A stretch of 37,817 nucleotides of DNA from a virus: the IMG/VR virus record IMGVR_UViG_3300037507_000290, positions 1 through 37,817 of that record, one strand, 5' to 3'. Position 1 is the stretch's first letter. Each line of letters opens with the position of its first letter. This document shows positions 19,029 to 32,828 of the stretch, piece after piece. The notes under the pieces were generated by a model. The model was given only the letters and a program-made list of their open reading frames with translations, was not told where the DNA came from and did not search any database. Both the position numbers and the translations under genes were made by a program.

Positions 19029-19041
19029 GACAGGAGAAGAA

Positions 19042-19263
19042 ATGAGCAAGAAAATCGGTTTAGGAGATTCTGTTAGTTCAATGGAATCCTCGAACTGTTG
19101 CCAGTGCGGGAAGAAAGTCGGAAAGAATCCATTTTGGATTCACCTTTCAAACTCGGGGCGCATTTTGAATCCAAATGAAGAAAATCCATCTTCGCAAGGA
19201 TTCTTTCCAATCGGCTCGGAATGCGCTAAGGGTTTCGAATCCGAAATGCTAGTGAGAAATTAG
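19042..19263 (+). CDS. Small Cys-containing (zinc-ribbon-like) early protein
   Basis: 73 residues, first gene of the early unit. It has NCCQCGKKVGKN with a CxxC-type knuckle (Cys19/20 and Cys22) and a later IGSECAKGF Cys, so metal binding is possible but the usual second CxxC pair is missing. ATG 19042 follows GACAGGAGAA by three bases. Early position suggests a host-takeover role. The last base of its TAG stop is part of stem II of the ribozyme that follows. No family recognised. Confidence 0.7.
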   Translation: MSKKIGLGDSVSSMESSNCCQCGKKVGKNPFWIHLSNSGRILNPNEENPSSQGFFPIGSECAKGFESEMLVRN

Positions 19264-19316
19264 GCGAAACCCCGCAAGGGGTCACGGGTGGAATGGTCTC
19301 CCCCGTCTGATGAGCC
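19263..19316 (+). ncRNA. Hammerhead ribozyme 1 (type II, complete core)
   Basis: Circularly permuted type-II hammerhead. Order: GGC then GAAA (19266-19269); stem III CCCC-GCAA-GGGG (19270-19281) capped by a GNRA loop; UC (19282-19283); stem I ACGGG...CCCGT (19284-19288 with 19302-19306) plus three more pairs after a bulge; CTGATGA (19307-19313); then GCC (19314-19316) closing stem II with GGC (19263-19265). All invariant nucleotides (C3 U4 G5 A6 U7 G8 A9, G12 A13 A14, A15.1-U16.1, C17) are present. Predicted self-cleavage lies between 19283 and 19284. The downstream product starts with stem I, then GACAGGAGAA and the metalloprotease ATG. Stem II is short (3 bp) and begins inside the upstream stop codon. 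Confidence 0.9.
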
Positions 19317-19345
19317 AGACCAAAAGAAAGACAGGAGAAGAAAAA

Positions 19346-19966
19346 ATGAAGACGCAAATCGAATCCAAAACCGAGAACCTATCGGGAATCGTGACCGCCT
19401 TAGAATCGGCTCACGCCCTTATTCAAGAGAAGACAGGCGCACCCCGCGCAACTATCCTAGTCACCCGCAAAACAGGGCGCACGATGGGGCACTTTACTCA
19501 CGCAAAACTATGGAAAGCAGGCGAGGAATCTTTCCACGAGATTATGATATCCGCGAACTATTTCGAGCGCGGGGCGCGGGCTGTCCTTGGCACTCTTCTT
19601 CACGAGGTGGCGCATTCCCTAGACCTAGCAAATGGAATCCAAGGCGTGACGGGCGATGGGTACCATAATAAAAAGTTCAAGCAGACCGCCGAGGCTCTCG
19701 GGCTCACAATCACACAAGCCAAGGGTATCGGGTGGAGCGTGACCGACGTATCCGATGAATGCGCCGATCGATGGGCGGATGCCCTAGCCTTGATTGAGAA
19801 TGCCCTCGCACTTATGGCAGATTCCGAGCAGGCAGGCAAGACACGAGGCAGAAATAAGAATCTATTGAAAGCGGTCTGTGAATGTTCAAGTATCCGCGCA
19901 AGTGCTACAGTTATCGAACAAGGCGTGACCTGTAACAAGTGCGGGCAGGTCTTCCGCAAGGCGTAA
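19346..19966 (+). CDS. SprT-like zinc metalloprotease
   Basis: 206 residues. I start it at ATG 19346, six bases after GACAGGAGAA; an in-frame ATG at 19310 lies inside the hammerhead core (ctgATGag) and is not a plausible start. The zincin motif HEVAH (86-90) with a third ligand in GYHNKKF (His107) gives an active-site zinc, and a C-terminal zinc ribbon has Cys178, Cys180, Cys196 and Cys199 (CEC...CNKCG). This is the SprT/Spartan layout. Spartan-type enzymes cut DNA-bound proteins, and phage homologues of unknown target are common in actinophage early regions. Possible roles are removal of host DNA-bound proteins or protection of replicating phage DNA (inference). Confidence 0.85.
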   Translation: MKTQIESKTENLSGIVTALESAHALIQEKTGAPRATILVTRKTGRTMGHFTHAKLWKAGEESFHEIMISANYFERGARAVLGTLLHEVAHSLDLANGIQGVTGDGYHNKKFKQTAEALGLTITQAKGIGWSVTDVSDECADRWADALALIENALALMADSEQAGKTRGRNKNLLKAVCECSSIRASATVIEQGVTCNKCGQVFRKA

Positions 19967-20036: not shown

Positions 20037-20075
20037 AAGAAACTTTCAGACTTACGACAGGAGAAAAGCACTACT

Positions 20076-20525
20076 ATGGAAACAGCCGAGAGAATCAACC
20101 CCTACAAGTGGGCACAAGATAATCTAAGCGCACCCCGCGCCCGCGCATTCTGGCAACAATACCGCGAACTAGAGAACGCGAAACTGTCCGACGAGTGGCG
20201 GGCAGAATGGAAAAAGTGCGACGAGATTAGAATCGCATTCGTTAGGGCAAACCTTGAGCAGACTAACGCAATCGAGCGAGCAACAGAACAAGCCGTGAGC
20301 GCGATTGAAGAAACTATCAGAAGCCTTCAGCAACAGGTCAGAGACCTCAGACAGACCGCCCGCGAGCGTGTCGAGAAGATTCAATCGGAGGTCTATAATC
20401 TCGAGGAGTATAAGGCTCAAGATGAAAAGGTGCGGGAGATGTGGCGACGAGATGACGCAGAGTTTCAGCCTAAGGCTCGAGCCTTGATGGATAAGTATCT
20501 AAAAGCGCAACAAGCGAGCAACTAG
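20076..20525 (+). CDS. Coiled-coil early protein (149 aa)
   Basis: 149 residues, highly charged. Residues about 60-125 form an almost continuous helix with heptad spacing (EQAVSAIEETIRSLQQQVRD, RQTARERVEKIQSEVYNLEE). The N-terminus has NPYKWAQDNLSAPRARAFWQ. Probably an oligomeric coiled coil; no catalytic or DNA-binding motif seen. Flanked by ribozyme 2 upstream and structured element A downstream, so its mRNA is probably made as a separate unit. Function unknown. Confidence 0.75.
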   Translation: METAERINPYKWAQDNLSAPRARAFWQQYRELENAKLSDEWRAEWKKCDEIRIAFVRANLEQTNAIERATEQAVSAIEETIRSLQQQVRDLRQTARERVEKIQSEVYNLEEYKAQDEKVREMWRRDDAEFQPKARALMDKYLKAQQASN

Positions 20526-20605: not shown

Positions 20606-20630
20606 GACGTAAGACAGGAGAAATAAGAAA

Positions 20631-20786
20631 ATGAACGAGCAGGATAAGCAAAATCTAAGCACGATTTACTATCACGCCTCGACTATTCGCCTACTGACCG
20701 ACGATAAGCAGGTACTCAAATCGGTGGCAAGAATTGAAGACCTTGTGGGGGAAATGTTCAAGGCTAGCGAGAAGGTAGGCGCGTAA
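20631..20786 (+). CDS. Tiny early protein (51 aa), unknown
   Basis: ATG 20631 lies eight bases after GACAGGAGAA; stop TAA 20784-20786. The product is MNEQDKQNLSTIYYHASTIR followed by LLTDDKQVLKSVARIEDLVG and EMFKASEKVGA, two amphipathic helices. Stop and next start overlap as TAATG, so the pair is co-translated. No family recognised. Confidence 0.7.
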   Translation: MNEQDKQNLSTIYYHASTIRLLTDDKQVLKSVARIEDLVGEMFKASEKVGA

Positions 20787-21024: not shown

Positions 21025-21046
21025 CAAGTAAGACAGGAGAAAAAAG

Positions 21047-21475
21047 ATGGACGCATTATCGCAAGCAATGTCCGCCGTGCTGGATGTATTTCCTAACGCT
21101 GTCGCAGATGAGCGTGAGGGTGAAATCGTAATCCTCACAGGCTCAAGCACATCAGAAGAGGTTCAGCCCAAGCCAATCAGCGACGAGGTACGACGCCTAG
21201 TTGTCTCGGATTGGTTCGCTACCGAGTGGCTAATGGTGGCAGAAAATGACCGCGAGTCATACGAACATCTTCAAGAGAGCGCAAAAGAATCTGAAAATGT
21301 CGTGGCACTTTCCGACGTATTGCGTGAGGACTGGGAAAGACTAGCCGAGCAAGTAACCGACCTCGTAAATGAGCAGATTAGCGAGACCGCAGGTCTATTT
21401 ATCTCTCAGATACTTCAGGGCTGGGGCTCTCTTCCCTTCGACATCATCGCAAAGCAAGTAAAAGAATCCAAATAA
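21047..21475 (+). CDS. Early hypothetical protein (142 aa)
   Basis: 142 residues, acidic. The N-terminal third has MDALSQAMSAVLDVFPNAVA and a strand-like EGEIVILTGSS; the rest is helical (RRLVVSDWFATEWLMVAEND, EQVTDLVNEQISETAGLFIS). No Cys cluster, Walker or HTH motif. ATG 21047 follows GACAGGAGAA by five bases and is preceded by structured element B. Likely a host-interaction protein by location only. Confidence 0.72.
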   Translation: MDALSQAMSAVLDVFPNAVADEREGEIVILTGSSTSEEVQPKPISDEVRRLVVSDWFATEWLMVAENDRESYEHLQESAKESENVVALSDVLREDWERLAEQVTDLVNEQISETAGLFISQILQGWGSLPFDIIAKQVKESK

Positions 21476-21503
21476 TCTAACGACTTACGACAGGAGAAAG
21501 ACA

Positions 21504-21647
21504 ATGCGTAAATGGAAAGTAGAACTAACAATAACAACAGACCTCAACCCTAATAAATGGAACTGGAGCGAGTTATTAGACCTCCAGTATGAGGGAGAAG
21601 AACTGAACTGGGTAGAGATAGAGGAAGTAAAGGAGGCAAGCGTATGA
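21504..21647 (+). CDS. Tiny early protein (47 aa), unknown
   Basis: ATG 21504 behind GACAGGAGAA (21489-21498); TGA 21645-21647 overlaps the next ATG as ATGA. The product begins MRKWKVELTITTDLNPNKWN and ends VEIEEVKEASV: a strand, a Trp-rich turn, then an acidic strand-helix. No family recognised. Confidence 0.7.
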   Translation: MRKWKVELTITTDLNPNKWNWSELLDLQYEGEELNWVEIEEVKEASV

Positions 21648-21811
21648 CCCCGCGCTGCGGTGTATGTGGTGGTGGAATATCAAATACCATCGTCCCTCAC
21701 GGGGCAATCTGCGAGGACAATCGCAAGGCGCAAAGTTCGCCCATATGTGGCGACTGCCTAGCACCTCTCTCAGAATGTATTCATAGTTACTACCTAAGAC
21801 AGGAGAAATAA
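21644..21811 (+). CDS. Small zinc-ribbon-like protein (55 aa)
   Basis: ATG 21644 overlaps the previous stop. The product begins MTPRCGVCGGGISNTIVPHG, with a second CxxC (SPICGDCLAPLSEC), giving four Cys in two CxxC pairs about 30 residues apart, a plausible zinc ribbon. It ends YYLRQEK, with the last codons reading through the start-associated sequence of the next gene (AAGACAGGAGAAATAA). Possibly an RNA polymerase- or DNA-binding early protein (inference). Confidence 0.72.
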   Translation: MTPRCGVCGGGISNTIVPHGAICEDNRKAQSSPICGDCLAPLSECIHSYYLRQEK

Positions 21812-21812
21812 A

Positions 21813-22142
21813 ATGACAACAGAAACAAAGACAAAAGACTTCCTCGAATATCCCGATGGTGGGGTGTATATGGCAATCATAGAACTACAAGAGCAGGAAG
21901 AGGGGACACTATTCACCTCGCCCGTTGATGGGGCAACTCATCTAGTCAAGGGCGTGACGATTGAAACTATGCGGAGCAAGTGGTGGGAGGGTGATTTTTC
22001 TAGCGAGATACTAGACGCTGTCTCAGAAATGGGCGCGTGTCGCTGGGTACTGGGCGAGCGCACAGAGTACGACTATCACGAGCACAATGGCAGACATTAC
22101 TTAGAGGTTACAGAAATCGGAAGACAAGAAGAGGAGAAATAA
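21813..22142 (+). CDS. Early hypothetical protein (109 aa)
   Basis: 109 residues, acidic at both ends, with a strand-rich core (GGVYMAIIELQEQEEGTLFT, THLVKGVTIETMRSKWWEGD) and YDYHEHNGRHYLEVTEIG near the end. No recognised domain. ATG 21813 follows GACAGGAGAA by five bases. The stop and next ATG are one base apart. Confidence 0.72.
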   Translation: MTTETKTKDFLEYPDGGVYMAIIELQEQEEGTLFTSPVDGATHLVKGVTIETMRSKWWEGDFSSEILDAVSEMGACRWVLGERTEYDYHEHNGRHYLEVTEIGRQEEEK

Positions 22143-22260: not shown

Positions 22261-22434
22261 ATGGAAACCCTAATAGAAATCTTGACAGGCACACACATCG
22301 GCGGTATCTTCGCACTACTTCAGACGATTCTCTACGTGTTGATTCTCTTCACAGTAGCGGTCCTCTCGTGGTGGTTGGCGATAGTAATTACAGACCTGAA
22401 GAAAAAACTACGACGTAAGACAGGAGAAAAATAA
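22261..22434 (+). CDS. Small single-span membrane protein (57 aa)
   Basis: ATG 22261 directly follows the previous TAA. The product has one clear hydrophobic span of about 27 residues (LLQTILYVLILFTVAVLSWW then LAIVI) followed by a Lys/Arg-rich tail (DLKKKLRRKTGEK), which predicts the C-terminus in the cytoplasm. Early expression argues against lysis; superinfection exclusion or membrane remodelling are possible (inference). Its last codons encode the GACAGGAGAA motif of the next gene. Confidence 0.72.
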   Translation: METLIEILTGTHIGGIFALLQTILYVLILFTVAVLSWWLAIVITDLKKKLRRKTGEK

Positions 22435-22626
22435 ATGAGCAAGAAACAGTCAGCCTTCCTCGTAATTGTGGAATGGACAAAGAGTAAAAGCACAGTAAAG
22501 ATTTACGACGGAGCGCAGGAGTTAGACATTGACAAACCCTTAGCCGAGGGCGTAGGCTCTCACTGGCGCGGAGCAATGGGCGAGGCGTTGGAACAAATCA
22601 ACATACAGACAGGAGAAGAACAATGA
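22435..22626 (+). CDS. Small early protein (63 aa), unknown
   Basis: 63 residues with strand-rich SAFLVIVEWTKSKSTVKIYD and an acidic, helical C-terminus (AMGEALEQINIQTGEEQ). ATG 22435 follows GACAGGAGAA. The final codons (QTGEEQ) are themselves the start-associated sequence of the next gene, whose ATG overlaps this TGA as ATGA. No family recognised. Confidence 0.7.
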   Translation: MSKKQSAFLVIVEWTKSKSTVKIYDGAQELDIDKPLAEGVGSHWRGAMGEALEQINIQTGEEQ

Positions 22627-22910
22627 AAGTAGGAACACTCATCGCACGTCTAAGAAAGAACTATGACTTAGACCAAGACGTAATGGCTTTCGTTATTGGT
22701 TCAGAATATAAAGAGAGCAAGGCAGGAGTCTTCGATAGAGCGGTGGAAATCTGGGACAGCGAGGACATTCTCTCGGTCTTCCAAGATTATCTCAATGACC
22801 TATACATCGACGCAGAGTTCCAAGTTACCAAGGACGAGCAAGCCGAGGATGCGGTAGATTCTTATCTCAATGACCTAGCAGAGGCGGAACTCAATGAACA
22901 AAACGTATAG
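22623..22910 (+). CDS. Early hypothetical protein (95 aa), acidic
   Basis: 95 residues with an N-terminal MKVGTLIARLRKNYDLDQDV, then a strongly acidic helical half (DEQAEDAVDSYLNDLAEAEL). Acidity could mean DNA mimicry, but nothing else supports that. Overlaps the next gene by 17 bases. Function unknown. Confidence 0.7.
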   Translation: MKVGTLIARLRKNYDLDQDVMAFVIGSEYKESKAGVFDRAVEIWDSEDILSVFQDYLNDLYIDAEFQVTKDEQAEDAVDSYLNDLAEAELNEQNV

Positions 22911-24057: not shown

Positions 24058-24227
24058 TGCCGACGTATGAATACAGATGCGAAGAGTGCCTAGCATTTCA
24101 AGAGACGCAGATTCATTTTGAAGTTGGACCTGAGTGCCCAGTATGTTATCGAACTATGAAGAGAGTCTGGTCTGCCCCTGGCATCCAGTTCAAAGGCACA
24201 GGATTTTACAAGACAGACAACCGCTAG
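24057..24227 (+). CDS. FmdB-type zinc-ribbon protein
   Basis: 56 residues starting at ATG 24057 (MPTYEYRCEECLAFQ); an in-frame ATG at 24009 would lie within the previous gene and lacks a ribosome-binding site. Cys pairs CEEC and CPVC (PECPVCYRTMKRVWSAPGI) and the ending FKGTGFYKTDNR match the FmdB/putative regulatory zinc-ribbon family. It is the last plus-strand gene. Its TAG shares the palindrome CTAG (24224-24227) with the stop of the converging minus-strand gene, leaving no room for a terminator. Confidence 0.85.
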   Translation: MPTYEYRCEECLAFQETQIHFEVGPECPVCYRTMKRVWSAPGIQFKGTGFYKTDNR

Positions 24228-24868
24228 TCTTCTAGTTCGTCTTCTTTATCTGGTAAATCATAATCAGGAAATGGCTTGAAGCCACCTAATTTGCGAATCA
24301 TTCTATTGATTGCCCGCTTGTGGCGCATACGAGCAGCATCCTCAGAGCCTAAACTTAAGAGGTTAGCAATCTCCTTGAAGTCCATTGACTGAGCGTGACG
24401 CATAAACAAAATCTTTCTATCTTCCTTACCAATCTTCCAATACACATAGTCAATCTCAATCATCAACGCCATTAGATTGCCACCTTCAGCAGGGGCAGAG
24501 GGGCGACCCACTCTTCCAATGTTCAACTTGTGAGACGTAGTGAACTCACCTCTTAAGACAGGAGGAAGCACAGCCTCAACTACTTCAGCAGTGTAGTAAT
24601 ACAGGTCAGCCGTGTCATAGCCAACAGACTTAGCCTTCCACTTCTGGCAGTAATCTAAAGCCTGGTTGCGTAGGCTACGATAGATAAGATTCTTCGCATC
24701 CTTGGGACCCTTGGCTTCCCACTCGTCTAACTTATTTGGATGTTCAGCGAACCACTGGTAGAGCACCTGTCTTATGTCATCAATCTCGACCATATCAAAC
24801 TTGCGAGAATACTCAAGAGCGACAGCATCCACTACATATTGCCAAGGTTCAATGCGTTCCCAGTTCAT
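24224..24868 (-). CDS. Sigma-70-like DNA-binding factor
   Basis: 214 residues. The N-terminal part (YSRKFDMVEIDDIRQVLYQW, NLIYRSLRNQALDYCQKWKA) resembles sigma region 2, and the C-terminal part (KEDRKILFMRHAQSMDFKEI, ANLLSLGSEDAARMRHKRAI) is a region-4-type helix-turn-helix. It is the last gene of the middle unit, well placed to switch transcription to late promoters, for example the weak -35 site upstream of the terminase. Sequence similarity is by eye only; an anti-sigma or simple HTH regulator is possible. Confidence 0.72.
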   Translation of the reverse strand: MNWERIEPWQYVVDAVALEYSRKFDMVEIDDIRQVLYQWFAEHPNKLDEWEAKGPKDAKNLIYRSLRNQALDYCQKWKAKSVGYDTADLYYYTAEVVEAVLPPVLRGEFTTSHKLNIGRVGRPSAPAEGGNLMALMIEIDYVYWKIGKEDRKILFMRHAQSMDFKEIANLLSLGSEDAARMRHKRAINRMIRKLGGFKPFPDYDLPDKEDELED

Positions 24869-27388: not shown

Positions 27389-28171
27389 CTATGCGTTCTC
27401 GGGGATGTCTTCTATGTACATATACTCAGGGTTGAACGCTAACCACGCGTTGAGATTCGCGTTAGCATCCGCTCTACCATACCTGTTCTTGACTGGCGCA
27501 ACTGCCATAGCAGTTCCGACGACTCCGAGAGTACAGATAAGCGCAGGGAGTTGAGCCACCTTTCCTTGGAGTGCCGACCTTGGTTGGCAAGGTTTGCCTT
27601 CCACAGCCTCCGATGTATGGTGTAGTACAACAATCGCAGCATTAGTCGCTCGAGCAAGATACTTTAACTCCTTCATAATCGCTCGCATTGATGCGAACTC
27701 TTCGCCACCATCAGTGGCTACATCCATTAGGTTATCTACAAAGATAGCCACAGGCGGGCATCCCCATAGTTCTTCAAAGGCTTGAACCTCTTCATCAATA
27801 TCAACAAGGCTAGGGCTTGACTCAAATGACCAGACAATGTGACTGCCCTTGGCAAGGGTAGCCTTAGTCCAACCCAAATCATTCTGTAATAGATACTCAA
27901 CATCACTCTGATTCTTACCGCTAATCATTGACGCAAGGCGCATAGCCATTGTGTGTGCGTTGGTATCTGCTGAGATATACAGCGTAGGAACTTTCATCTT
28001 CAGTGCTAATGCCAAGGCTAGTGTTGACTTACCTACACCTGGAGTTCCTGCCATCATAGAGACTTCTGCTCTACGAAAGATAATCTTATTTGTTTCAAAT
28101 GCTTTGAACACAGCGGGCAATGGTTCCCCACCGATGTCGGTTCTACCGACTGACCTTACTAAAGTTTTCAT
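27389..28171 (-). CDS. RecA/DnaB-superfamily ATPase, probable replicative helicase
   Basis: 260 residues. Walker A AGTPGVGKST (41-50), Walker B VAIFVDN (141-147), and a VVLHHTSE motif (181-188) that carries the sensor position in DnaB/RepA/AAA_25-type ATPases, then KNRYGRAD (Arg finger-like). It lacks the DnaB N-terminal domain, so it is the core type (like RepA or AAA_25) and probably acts as a hexamer. With the primase pair it forms the phage replication module; DNA polymerase must come from the host. ATG 28171 lies behind TTAAGACAGGAG and a hairpin (28194-28226). Confidence 0.82.
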   Translation of the reverse strand: MKTLVRSVGRTDIGGEPLPAVFKAFETNKIIFRRAEVSMMAGTPGVGKSTLALALALKMKVPTLYISADTNAHTMAMRLASMISGKNQSDVEYLLQNDLGWTKATLAKGSHIVWSFESSPSLVDIDEEVQAFEELWGCPPVAIFVDNLMDVATDGGEEFASMRAIMKELKYLARATNAAIVVLHHTSEAVEGKPCQPRSALQGKVAQLPALICTLGVVGTAMAVAPVKNRYGRADANANLNAWLAFNPEYMYIEDIPENA

Positions 28172-28245
28172 TATGCTCCTGTCTTAAGTTGAAACCACCC
28201 ACTACCTTCCCCGAATAGTAGGTGGTCTCAGTTGTCCCCGATAAG
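28172..28245 (-). promoter_or_regulatory. Hairpin and start-associated sequence before the ATPase gene
   Basis: In this 74-base gap the minus-strand RNA forms ACCACC/GGTGGT (28221-28226 with 28194-28199) around a 21-base loop, with possible extra TAC/GTA pairs inside. CTTAAGACAGGAG follows, just before the ATG of the ATPase gene. The arrangement hairpin-then-GACAGGAG repeats the pattern of the early unit on the opposite strand. No terminator or promoter is evident. Confidence 0.5.
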
Positions 28246-28620
28246 TTAGTTAACGGGCTTGCACTGGTCAGCACCCTGTGGTTGAGGGCAAGACCAGAAC
28301 GCGTATGGTTGTCCTGTCTTCTTACTTACGCCACTTCGGAATACTCGCGGTCCGTGAATACAGGTAGGGGACTGAGCCTTTGCCTGGTCTGGAATTGAGG
28401 AGACTGGTGGCGTTGTGACGGGAGTTGAAGCGGGCGTCGCTAAAGGGAGTGTGTTGTATGCCGCCGTAACCATCTTCGCAGTTGCTGCGATTTGAGTTGA
28501 GTAGTCGGATACGCCCTCAAGTAGAACGCTTAGTTCGTCAGCGGTATTAGCACGGACGTTAATCATATCTCCCGCAGGAGTTTTGTAGGAAACTTGTAGT
28601 TTCCAATCGTCGTTGTTCAT
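28246..28620 (-). CDS. Putative DNA-binding protein with C-terminal zinc-ribbon-like motif
   Basis: 124 residues from ATG 28620 (MNNDDWKLQVSYKTPAGDMI), chosen because ATGA overlaps the upstream stop; an in-frame ATG at 28671 lies within the upstream gene. The N-terminal strands (KLQVSYKTPAGDMINVRANT) precede a helical, Thr/Pro-rich linker, then CIHGPRVFRSGVSKK and YAFWSCPQPQGADQCKP, three Cys plus a His as probable metal ligands. I have seen this CxHG...R.G...W.CP...QC pattern in actinophage replication regions. A single-strand-binding or recombination mediator role is inferred. Confidence 0.6.
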   Translation of the reverse strand: MNNDDWKLQVSYKTPAGDMINVRANTADELSVLLEGVSDYSTQIAATAKMVTAAYNTLPLATPASTPVTTPPVSSIPDQAKAQSPTCIHGPRVFRSGVSKKTGQPYAFWSCPQPQGADQCKPVN

Positions 28621-29219
28621 TGTTTCTCTTTCGTAAATTGGCAGTGTTCTGTGAGTCCACAGTAACTGCAACTGGATAGGTTAGGGAGAAATATACCAGC
28701 CTTGCGAGCCTTGTCGAATCCCGACACTAGGTACTCAAGACTATCGAGGGTATATCTACTCAGGTCAATCATCTCTCCTGTCCCAGATTCTCTGGACATC
28801 CAGTAGTTACCTTGATTGACTGTTACGCCAAGCATCAGTTCAATCCCGACTTTGTAGAAGCCAAGTTGCAAGTCTGATGTTGGTCTACGCGCTGATGTCT
28901 TAAGGTCGACAATGACAAGTTCACCATTGACCTCAAAGACACGGTCAATCACCATCTTCACAGGCACGTCTGCGATGACAGGATTGAGTTCTAGTTCGAT
29001 GGCTTTAGCACCCTGAGGTGTGCGCCATAGTTTCCAATCGGTATTGGCTTTGCGCCAAGCGATGTAGTTATCCACCCACTGTGGACCCATCTCGTTCCAC
29101 CAAGTAGCATCTTCCTTATTCGGGTTAGCCTTAGTAGCACGACCCGCAACGCGGGCTTTAGTAAAGTCTAGGTCCTTGGTTTCTTTGGTCCAAGCATCTG
29201 CCCATAGTTGATTAGTCAT
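28617..29219 (-). CDS. Cas4/RecB-like exonuclease, catalytic part of a split gene
   Basis: 200 residues. VKMVIDRVFEVNGELVIVDLKTS supplies Asp92, Asp105 and Lys107, and DLQLGFYKVG is the QxxxY motif, all PD-(D/E)XK exonuclease hallmarks. The C-terminus SCSYCGLTEHCQF is the Cx2Cx5C part of the [4Fe-4S] staple of the Cas4/AddB/RecB type. The fourth Cys, which should lie near the N-terminus, is not in this product but in the preceding gene (29212-29400, YLTCGYQYY). The two overlap by eight bases in different frames. It would resect DNA ends for recombination or degrade host DNA. Confidence 0.82.
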   Translation of the reverse strand: MTNQLWADAWTKETKDLDFTKARVAGRATKANPNKEDATWWNEMGPQWVDNYIAWRKANTDWKLWRTPQGAKAIELELNPVIADVPVKMVIDRVFEVNGELVIVDLKTSARRPTSDLQLGFYKVGIELMLGVTVNQGNYWMSRESGTGEMIDLSRYTLDSLEYLVSGFDKARKAGIFLPNLSSCSYCGLTEHCQFTKEKQ

Positions 29220-29400
29220 TTGCTAAGTCCCATTCCTCAGTTGCTGAGTGGAATGCACGACCACCTGCGGACCAGATACTAGGTTCCTCTGGGACTTGTA
29301 GCAGTCGACCAAGGTAATACTGGTAGCCACAAGTCAGGTAGGTAGTGAATGCTGAGTACGATATGTGGGCTGGTAATGTGTAGCCCTGTAATTGAATCAT
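29212..29400 (-). CDS. N-terminal part of the split Cas4/RecB-like exonuclease
   Basis: 62 residues. SYSAFTTYLTCGYQYYLGRL then SAGGRAFHSATEEW matches the N-terminal portion of RecB-family nucleases (S.S....Y..C...Y......GG.A.H.A.E): the single Cys of the iron-sulfur staple and the H...E helix that completes the active site. First gene of the middle unit, behind a pseudoknot-capable leader and GACAGGAGAAAGCA. Sixty-two plus 200 residues equals a usual single-chain length, so either two-subunit assembly, a frameshift event or a recent gene break is involved. Confidence 0.78.
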   Translation of the reverse strand: MIQLQGYTLPAHISYSAFTTYLTCGYQYYLGRLLQVPEEPSIWSAGGRAFHSATEEWDLAND

Positions 29401-29405
29401 TGCTT

Positions 29406-29476
29406 TCTCCTGTCGTTAGTTAGTTACATAGCCCCTTTACGGAGGACAGGAGAGTACTCGACATATCGGGGCTATG
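29406..29476 (-). promoter_or_regulatory. Leader with interlocking stems covering the first ribosome-binding site
   Basis: In the minus-strand RNA, CATAGCCCC (29468-29476) can pair perfectly with GGGGCTATG (29427-29435), and TCTCCTGTC (29445-29453) can pair perfectly with GACAGGAGA (29406-29414), the start-associated sequence before ATG 29400. The order is A, B, A', B', so the two 9-bp stems either form a pseudoknot or exclude each other. Pairing B hides the ribosome-binding site of the first nuclease gene. This resembles a translational switch, with ligand or trigger unknown. Confidence 0.7.
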
Positions 29477-29511
29477 CAATATTCAGTTGTATATAATATA
29501 TATTATATTAT

Positions 29512-29539
29512 ATATATAAGGGGCTTCGCCCCTATATAT
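29512..29539 (-). repeat. Hairpin AGGGGC-TTC-GCCCCT in AT-rich leader
   Basis: A 6-bp GC stem (29519-29524 with 29528-29533) extended by six AU pairs past one bulged A. It lies just downstream of the predicted start of the middle-unit transcript, so it would be near that mRNA's 5' end. Flanking DNA is almost only A and T and resembles the AT tract near 18371-18418. It could also work as an origin element. Confidence 0.55.
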
Positions 29540-29553
29540 TATATATATTATCT

Positions 29554-29583
29554 ATTATAGATTAATTATACACTGACTGTCAA
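29554..29583 (-). promoter_or_regulatory. Middle-unit promoter, TTGACA-18-TATAAT
   Basis: On the minus strand a perfect TTGACA (29578-29583) and a perfect TATAAT (29554-29559) are 18 bases apart. A second perfect TTGACA (29590-29595) lies 19 bases from another TATAAT (29565-29570), so two overlapping consensus promoters are possible. Start of transcription near 29547 gives a leader of about 147 bases with strong secondary structure before ATG 29400. This is the best housekeeping-type promoter in the window. Confidence 0.75.
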
Positions 29584-30614: not shown

Positions 30615-32828
30615 TTATACGGTCCTTATAGTAATTTCTACTACACCGCCATAACCAGAGAAGCCTCGGTCTGGGGGAGTAAGACGAGTGAAGTTGATTT
30701 GCTCGATAACTGCCTGACGAGATTCGCCAGTAGTTAGGTCTTGCCAGGTGACAACGTCACCATTCTCTTCGATTGTTTCGAGCGCAGACAATCGGTCGAA
30801 TGCCCTACCTTCATACCCGACTAGGACGTTGTATCTATCAGTCTCTACGTCGAAGCAGTAGACAGGGAATCTTATGACTCGCTGACGAGGTGTAGCGATT
30901 GTGGCTTTGATTTGATAGCCCTGGAATACAGGACCTTTGGTTACATCAGTTGCATCTCTGTAAAGAATGAACTTGTATGCCAAGTATTCTTGGGCATTGA
31001 ATGGCTGAGTAGTGGTTACCTCAACAGAGGGAACTGTTGCGTCGTAAGAAATAATGTCGTACTCGGTGCCATCGGCATCGACAGTTTCTAGTGTCATAGA
31101 ACCATACTGGAAATCACCACGCCCTATCAGACGCTTAAAGTTCTTAGGTTCTAATGTGTTGTAGCGGATATAGCCTGTGGTCAGGTATCCACTTGCCGCT
31201 TTCTCTGTTGCACTTTCTAGGTATGTTGCACCAGGAACGTTAGCCAAAGCGGTTGCAGATGTGACTGCTGTAGATACTACGTTAGTAGCAGCCTTGGTGT
31301 AAGAGAACGTTGTGGTTGTAGCAGCGGTAATTGTGTAAGCAGATGTGGTTGAGTTGAAGGTTGCATCAACTCCCTGAACCCATACCTCATCGCCAATCTC
31401 AAGACCGTGAGCAGATGCTGTGGTCAAGGTGGCAACGTTGCTTGTTAGTTGCTTATTAGTAATTGTTCCGCCAACGCTGTTGGCAGTTGATGAGAACAAT
31501 AGTTGGTCAGTTCCATTACCAAAAGCACAAGCGGTTGTCAAGTGTCCTAGTAAATCGCCATAATAAATATCACTTGCGTAAGCAAATACCAATGGTTCAA
31601 GTTGCTGACTTAAGTCAATACGAGTTAGTCCTGGATATCCATCTACTCCAGTTGTTGCCCATACGTAATGGTCACGTGAGCAGAAGTCATAGACTGGTTG
31701 GTCGGTCTCTATAATCAATGGACCATAGTTAATTGAGCCATCAACGTCTGAGACAACGGCTACACGGATACCTTTGTTGGTACCAATAACCATATAGCCT
31801 AGGTAGTAATGAATCTTATGGACAATCTCACCCGTTGGAAACTCTGCTGCTACTACAGCCTGAGTCAAGGTTGGCATTAGACCTGCTGTTGACAGAGTGA
31901 ACTTAATAATTGTAGATTGAATACCGTTGTATCCAGCCACATAGATAGCAGCACCTGATGCTGCGATAGATGTATAGATATGAGATGTAGATGGGTGGGT
32001 ATATACAGCAGTTGGGAATGAACTTGCATTGGACGCAAATTCATAGACGGCATTGTTGACACACATAACGATACGCTCTTTGACAAACTCCATCACTGCA
32101 TTAGATACAACTATGCTTGGTGATGAGAAGAGAGAGACTGCTGCTGTAGATGAGTTGCCTGTTAAAGGCTTCTTGTAGACGGTAGCCTTGCCGCCTCCGC
32201 TAGCATCGTTAGTAACCCAATAGGAAGTAGTACCATCGTCACATATATCATAAACAGGAAAGTCAGTAGTAGCATTGTAGTCAATAAAGTCCGTAACATT
32301 GCCCGCAACATCGATTTTATCAACATCGTACTCATCCTTCAATAGTACACCCTCAGTGTTATTCCACTTGATAGAACGTAGTCTTTGGTTCGCACGTCCA
32401 CTGCTAGTCAATGCACCAGTAGTGAGGTGCTCTGAACTTACTGAGTTGAGTAGGGTTGCTTGACCTTGGGTCCAGACATCCACGTTACGGCTATCGGCAA
32501 AGCGATACGCACCCTCATTGGATACTAAAGCAGGGTCAAAAAAAGTAATCCCCGCTCCATTATGGAACGAGGATTGGCTTCTAATCCACCAGCCTGTGAG
32601 GCTCTGCTCGCCAGGCTCAGTCTGATTATCAAATTGTTCTTTACGGAAAGGAGCAGTCTGTCTTATGTAAGGACGACCATCGCTGATTGCATAGATAAAT
32701 GGCTGTCCGCCAATAGCAACGTCATATGCGACATCAGTATTAACCCAGACAGAGGTGTCAGTTAGTACACCAACATCAACAGCAATCGCACGTGAGGCGC
32801 GTCCTTCGGTAATATCACGACCAGCCAC
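30615..32828 (-). CDS. Large tail protein, beta-propeller-like (737 aa)
   Basis: 737 residues, beta-rich. The N-terminal SRAIAVDVGVLTDTSVWVNT and QTEPGEQSLTGWWIRSQSSF match a tail protein I recognise from aquatic actinophages. The middle has repeated strand units (YDICDDGTTSYWVTND, AIYVAGYNGIQSTIIKF, DFCSRDHYVWATTGVDG) typical of propeller blades. Residues about 455-520 (HGLEIGDEVWVQGVDAT) form an inserted small beta domain common in phage tails. Function inferred: structural tail component (possibly tail tube closure or receptor platform) encoded between fibres and lysis genes. Confidence 0.72.
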   Translation of the reverse strand: MAGRDITEGRASRAIAVDVGVLTDTSVWVNTDVAYDVAIGGQPFIYAISDGRPYIRQTAPFRKEQFDNQTEPGEQSLTGWWIRSQSSFHNGAGITFFDPALVSNEGAYRFADSRNVDVWTQGQATLLNSVSSEHLTTGALTSSGRANQRLRSIKWNNTEGVLLKDEYDVDKIDVAGNVTDFIDYNATTDFPVYDICDDGTTSYWVTNDASGGGKATVYKKPLTGNSSTAAVSLFSSPSIVVSNAVMEFVKERIVMCVNNAVYEFASNASSFPTAVYTHPSTSHIYTSIAASGAAIYVAGYNGIQSTIIKFTLSTAGLMPTLTQAVVAAEFPTGEIVHKIHYYLGYMVIGTNKGIRVAVVSDVDGSINYGPLIIETDQPVYDFCSRDHYVWATTGVDGYPGLTRIDLSQQLEPLVFAYASDIYYGDLLGHLTTACAFGNGTDQLLFSSTANSVGGTITNKQLTSNVATLTTASAHGLEIGDEVWVQGVDATFNSTTSAYTITAATTTTFSYTKAATNVVSTAVTSATALANVPGATYLESATEKAASGYLTTGYIRYNTLEPKNFKRLIGRGDFQYGSMTLETVDADGTEYDIISYDATVPSVEVTTTQPFNAQEYLAYKFILYRDATDVTKGPVFQGYQIKATIATPRQRVIRFPVYCFDVETDRYNVLVGYEGRAFDRLSALETIEENGDVVTWQDLTTGESRQAVIEQINFTRLTPPDRGFSGYGGVVEITIRTV

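Follow-up and report, generated by a model that had tools for sequence, protein, structure and literature searches.

The leader of a phage operon for DNA metabolism carries a conserved hairpin whose loop is the exact complement of GACAGGAG, an extended Shine–Dalgarno (SD) octamer. What is new is that, in most of the 13 genomes compared, many early genes and several middle ones are preceded by copies of this octamer, whose complement is displayed in the loop. We refer to the octamer as the ‘start-associated sequence’ (SAS), after the motif of that name in mycobacteriophages, and to the hairpin as the anti-SAS element. On balance, and from sequence, we favour the reading that the hairpin has two kinds of pairing partner, early mRNAs in trans and its own SD in cis, and so acts as an early-to-middle switch.

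The window (the whole stretch of 37,817 nt that was analysed, IMG/VR record IMGVR_UViG_3300037507_000290) has its middle operon on the − strand, encoding a split exonuclease, a DnaB-like helicase, a resolvase, primase parts and a sigma factor. The first gene is the 62-aa N-terminal half of a Cas4/RecB-like exonuclease (29212..29400, −; PF12705 positions 1–48, E 7e-7), and the 200-aa C-terminal half lies at 28617..29219 (−; PF12705 positions 69–247; phrog_1870, E 4e-41). Near the operon end is a sigma-factor-like gene (24224..24868, −; phrog_354, E 1.5e-12). The two exonuclease ORFs overlap by ATGACTAA, and the same split occurs in the relatives read; L072, L073 and L091 have an extra ORF between the halves, and the annotations of D29 and of a P. 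acnes phage show the homologue as one undivided gene. Two isolated phages, LanE43AprE7 (OX376640) and LanE43AprF5 (OX376641), carry the element. Both infect ‘Ca. Planktophila’ of the order Nanopelagicales (PMC10202952), which makes it the element of a phage family on abundant freshwater Actinobacteriota.

A conserved hairpin in the middle-operon leader

Upstream of the hairpin lies a candidate promoter, TTGACA-18-TATAAT (29554..29583, −), that matches the consensus at 12/12 positions, where one chance site is expected in the region; an alternative −10, GTGTATAATT (TATAAT at 29570-29565), is found upstream in many relatives. Between A/T-rich stretches, also upstream, is a small GC hairpin, GGGGC-GAA-GCCCC (29519..29533, −), which relatives replace by another complementary one such as GGCGC-GGA-GCGCC. 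Its form but not its sequence is kept in many of them (GGGGCGAAGCCCC, GGCGCGGAGCGCC and GGCGCTAAGGCGCC).

The preliminary description of this DNA had reported two perfect 9-mer complementarities in the order A–B–A′–B′, and a check of the − strand RNA bore them out. Stem A is CAUAGCCCC (29476-29468), B is UCUCCUGUC (29453-29445), A′ is GGGGCUAUG (29435-29427) and B′ is GACAGGAGA (29414-29406), the last being the cis SAS and the SD of the first middle gene, whose AUG is at 29400 on the − strand. Shuffling the 148-nt leader by dinucleotides 20,000 times gave one 9-bp helix with at least 3 G/C pairs in 843 cases and the interlocked helix pair in 2. The nested hairpin alone has a predicted folding energy of −29.9 kcal/mol (z = −3.06).

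An alignment of 48 elements showed stem A to be part of a longer helix. The anti-SAS hairpin, all of it on the − strand, consists of an 18-pair stem P1 (5′ strand 29462..29479, including A; 3′ strand 29424..29441, including A′), a UY bulge (29460..29461), a 3-pair stem P2 and a 12-nt apical loop, UACUCUCCUGUC (29445..29456). P1 pairs 29479-29462 with 29441-29424 and has an internal A.A/G.A mismatch in the studied sequence, and P2 pairs GAG (29457..29459) with CUC (29442..29444) through G29459–C29442, A29458–U29443 and G29457–C29444. The first base of the bulge is always U, and a few relatives have a third bulge base. The anti-SAS octamer, CUCCUGUC (29452-29445), lies within the loop, the 5′ side of stem B spanning 29453-29445.

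We fetched 80 IMG/VR relatives with the 200-aa exonuclease half (28617-29219), 75 of which had enough upstream sequence. The loop octamer CUCCUGUC was present in all 75 of these protein-found loci, and CTCCTGTCCTC was exact in 73; the remaining two differ in P2 only, compensated on both strands. The P2 changes are CAG/CUG in L018 and AAG/CUU in L034, in place of GAG/CUC. A pattern scan enlarged the set to 89 distinct elements, but because the scan pattern had fixed the loop, loop invariance is claimed from the protein-found loci only. Among 48 representative elements, 14/18 P1 pairs show two-sided changes, the whole structure holds 176 compensatory cells against 53.8 when shuffled (0 of 500), and 93% of all cells are paired, compared with 44–48% with the partner slid. 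We regard the hairpin structure as secure.

Both complementarities are thus retained in relatives, upstream of their Cas4-like genes, where the preliminary description had suggested looking for the structure; its proposal, which a loss of both from related phages would have contradicted, passes this check. The two stems differ in how they are kept: A has two-sided covariation within P1, while the loop side of B is invariant and shows no such covariation. The cis SD pairs with the loop in nearly all of the 89 distinct elements, its drift being mostly G–U-compatible; covariation of loop and SAS between lineages was not seen, the loop being constant. The loop is more conserved than cis pairing alone requires. 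Apart from the helices and the anti-SD loop, conservation is confined to the UY bulge and a few nucleotides of the loop. The element keeps its place ahead of the operon’s leading gene, including where a small gene precedes the exonuclease, and each of the 13 genomes has a single copy of the covarying hairpin, at the middle operon. Matches to the motif on host contigs (at least 119) had chance-like flanks, and none was accepted as an element.

The SAS octamer and its predicted pairing with loop or ribosome

The preliminary description saw the pairing of the loop with the SD in cis. That pairing stands, and the same loop also complements the SDs of many other genes, because the cis SD octamer GACAGGAG is itself a repeated SAS. 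Nine small + strand ORFs in the window are preceded by it: at 19029..19036 (before an ORF at 19042), 19330..19337 (before a SprT-like gene, ORF 19346-19966), 20056..20063 (ORF 20076-20525), 20613..20620 (ORF 20631-20786), 21032..21039 (ORF 21047-21475), 21489..21496 (ORF 21504-21647), 21798..21805 (ORF 21813-22142), 22419..22426 (ORF 22435-22626) and 22608..22615 (ORF 22623-22910). Within the middle operon, a copy at 28176..28183 (−) stands before the DnaB-like helicase gene (27389-28171).

In the 13 genomes together we counted 94 copies of the octamer on the strand opposite the operon, including the 13 that are the loop itself, 40 in the opening 6.5 kb of the middle operon and none in the late region; 107 of the 134 copies lie shortly upstream of an ORF start. 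With genes called mechanically and early, middle and late timing inferred from strand and gene content, AGGAG-type starts carry GACAGGAG in 69/190 early, 38/86 middle and 0/128 late cases. It is the leading octamer at early and middle starts of this type, whereas YTAAGGAG prevails at late ones (an example of a late-gene SD is CUAAGGAG). Contexts read without gene annotation gave the exact octamer on few early genes in two genomes, G006 and G011, and GACGGGAG in G009, which still pairs with the loop by G–U.

Two further observations concern individual copies. At 28775-28782 (−), inside the exonuclease coding sequence, GACAGGAG is followed by an in-frame ATG, a possible internal start, and the relatives read have this arrangement at the corresponding place. 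Between the first two SAS-bearing early genes, and just ahead of an SAS, there is a type II hammerhead ribozyme (RF02276, 42.5 bits; 19262-19324, +); judging by this match, it may cut the early mRNA there.

The SAS is not an optimal ribosome site, since the C at its position 3 mismatches the actinobacterial 16S tail CACCUCCUUUCU; this C is nearly always kept nonetheless, and it pairs with a G of the loop. An unusual host 16S tail fitting GACAGGAG was considered and rejected on the evidence of matches from Actinomycetia, those listed all reading CACCTCCTTTCT. Variation at the internal positions 3 and 4 of the SAS is largely of a kind that wobble pairing tolerates (A4>G 10, C3>T 2 and C3>A 1). 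Predicted duplexes of early SDs reach −15.6 kcal/mol with the loop and −9.7 kcal/mol with a generic 16S tail, compared with −8.0 and −9.0 kcal/mol, respectively, for late SDs. The loop is therefore favoured over 16S by about 6 kcal/mol at early SDs but not at late ones, and each of the nine early SDs in the window is predicted to pair with it at about −15.6 kcal/mol. It is on complementarity, invariance and wobble-compatible drift that we propose loop–SAS pairing.

The preliminary description had noted that both stems could form together only as a pseudoknot. The loop is indeed complementary to the downstream SD, but a simple stable pseudoknot is doubtful: the linker from P1 to the cis SD is only 2–9 nt, against a P1 of mostly 14–19 pairs (mode 17–18), so a fully formed P1 leaves little room for complete cis pairing. 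A crude estimate from lengths (about 6 Å per nucleotide versus 2.8 Å per pair) suggests that some 2–5 basal P1 pairs would have to open for cis pairing to be complete. On this estimate, the loop would be left relatively available.

A parallel hairpin in K1 mycobacteriophages

The SAS is known from cluster K mycobacteriophages, and a motif likened to it from Microbacterium phages of cluster EF; its function has been unknown since 2011 (PMC3203893, PMC7302621). K1 phages also have a single reverse-oriented SAS, not obviously linked to a gene start, that its discoverers left unexplained (PMC3203893). We found that a strong hairpin, with a predicted −38.5 kcal/mol in Adephagia, has this reverse SAS as its loop (Anaya 59870, Adephagia 58682). 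The hairpin region was found in 142 records and the loop read in seven phages. In these seven the stems vary but are 100% paired, two pairs being changed on both sides, and the loop CCTCCTATCCC is kept in six; the seventh, the K6 phage Amohnition, has CCTCCTTCCCC, which would match its own SAS only with a bulge.

In Adephagia the gap separating genes 92 and 93, the apparent starting point of late transcription (PMC11373665), contains the hairpin. The K1 hairpin is not directly followed by a SAS, so cis pairing cannot be its purpose. The K1 hairpin is an independent parallel to the anti-SAS hairpin of the Planktophila phages. Adephagia gene 39 (record 31344-31742) has an Hfq-like structural match (PMC11373665), which could be relevant to RNA–RNA pairing.

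No anti-SAS hairpin beyond chance was found in K2 ZoeJ, K3 Pixie or the Microbacterium EF phage AnnaSerena, and the design is accordingly not universal among SAS phages. The sole site of anti-SAS type in ZoeJ is the SAS of a reverse-strand gene. Pixie has a different sequence in the corresponding region (record 59660-60110), which can form a long hairpin without an anti-SAS loop. Among actinophages with a related Cas4-like operon (PHL073M02, D29 and Sheen), no convincing SAS-like repeats were found.

Readings of the element and known systems

In the reading that we favour, early and some middle genes share the extended SD GACAGGAG, and the middle-operon mRNA begins with a rigid hairpin whose loop displays the exact complement. 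Once the middle operon is transcribed, the loops would pair in trans with the SDs of early mRNAs and block ribosomes there, sparing late genes with their ordinary SDs. In cis, the loop could hold the SD of the first middle gene, and early mRNA, by taking up loops, would release middle translation, an exchange that would switch expression from early to middle. Some findings weigh against this anti-SAS reading: the loop never covaries, the cis SD competes for it, the exact octamer is scarce at early genes in G006 and G011 and is replaced in G009, and one recurring middle-operon copy of GACAGGAG lies inside the exonuclease coding sequence. A SAS can, moreover, exist without the hairpin, as ZoeJ, Pixie and AnnaSerena (and Amohnition, with its bulged match) indicate.

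Autoregulation in cis alone, with the loop sequestering the first middle SD and release left to a phage protein, to the ribosome or to folding kinetics, would have precedent in the pseudoknot of T4 gene 32 (PMC3014915). It would suit the complementarity kept in nearly all elements and their position directly upstream of the first gene, whichever gene that is. The early SD would then be shared by coincidence or for another cause, yet it is this repeated octamer that the loop matches, and drift of the cis SD to G–U pairs has not been accompanied by any change in the loop. With a linker short for full P1, and a K1 hairpin that has no SAS directly downstream, we consider regulation confined to cis unlikely. 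The pairing data that speak for the anti-SAS reading would serve equally if the exchange ran mainly in reverse, early SAS-bearing mRNAs opening the leader so that middle translation senses their abundance and early repression is a side effect. The presence of a cis SAS in the Planktophila phage family suits such an arrangement, but the K1 hairpin has no cis SAS to release, and we think it very improbable.

A motif repeated at many starts is also what a protein regulon is expected to look like, and the discoverers of the SAS left the choice between RNA and protein open (PMC3203893). GACAGGAG would then be the site of a RegA-like RNA-binding protein, of the phage or of the host, acting on early genes as a repressor or an activator, the hairpin only masking or presenting one such site. 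The conserved UY bulge and GAG/CUC could be contacts of such a protein, and a protein partner for the leader element, as the preliminary description had allowed, is possible. As an account of the octamer, however, we judge the protein distinctly unlikely, as it leaves unexplained the invariant exact complement displayed in a hairpin loop, the recurrence of the design with a different sequence in K1 phages and the wobble-compatible drift. Riboswitches of the pseudoknot type, such as SAM-II and preQ1-II, have a general layout of hairpin plus SD pairing, which the leader resembles. It matched no Rfam family at gathering or relaxed thresholds and has few conserved unpaired nucleotides apart from the anti-SD loop, and a metabolite riboswitch is extremely improbable. 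Of the earlier proposal, there is strong support for a conserved element of translational control in the DNA-metabolism operon’s leader, but not for a response to a metabolite.

More tentatively, the anti-SAS reading may extend to a strategy of actinobacteriophages, in which early genes bear a private SD ‘address’ that is read by RNA, and the mRNA of the next stage silences the previous stage by mass base pairing; it would have arisen or persisted in at least two groups with different addresses, the Planktophila phages and the K1 mycobacteriophages. If true, phages of some very common freshwater bacteria would possess an early-to-late translation switch made of RNA only. The finding gives the SAS a concrete, sequence-exact partner. 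The SAS would be kept beyond the needs of the ribosome because its C at position 3, a mismatch to 16S rRNA, pairs with the loop, and a reason is offered for the odd reverse SAS of K1 phages. The question can be tested in the two isolated Planktophila phages and in the genetically tractable Adephagia.

We found no report of an anti-SAS RNA in the papers searched, which were largely freely available ones, and such a hairpin is not described for the SAS of clusters K and EF (PMC3203893, PMC7302621). Like the motif of those clusters, the SAS here is an extended SD that hardly varies, recurs at many non-structural gene starts and is missing from the virion genes. The sequences differ, being GACAGGAG here, GGGATAGGAGCCC in K and GGGAAAGGACCCC in EF; GACAGGAG does not match the cluster K consensus, and there are no shared flanks. 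The ESAS of cluster K are repeated inverted repeats holding putative promoters, in contrast to an RNA hairpin here, and 17-bp inverted repeats of the ESAS type at about half of the sites were not seen in the 13 genomes, where the hairpin occurs once in each. Trans-acting anti-SD small RNAs such as AbcR1 (named in PMC6234868) likewise pair a single-stranded stretch with the SDs of mRNAs, but the present element belongs to an mRNA leader, and its targets, one of them in cis, have a single octamer in common. The present system resembles T4 RegA and the leader pseudoknot of T4 gene 32 (PMC3014915) in that early or replication genes of a phage are controlled translationally, around the initiation region, and resembles gene 32 also in having a pseudoknot in its leader; both act through protein, whereas here the proposed partner is an RNA complementary to its targets.
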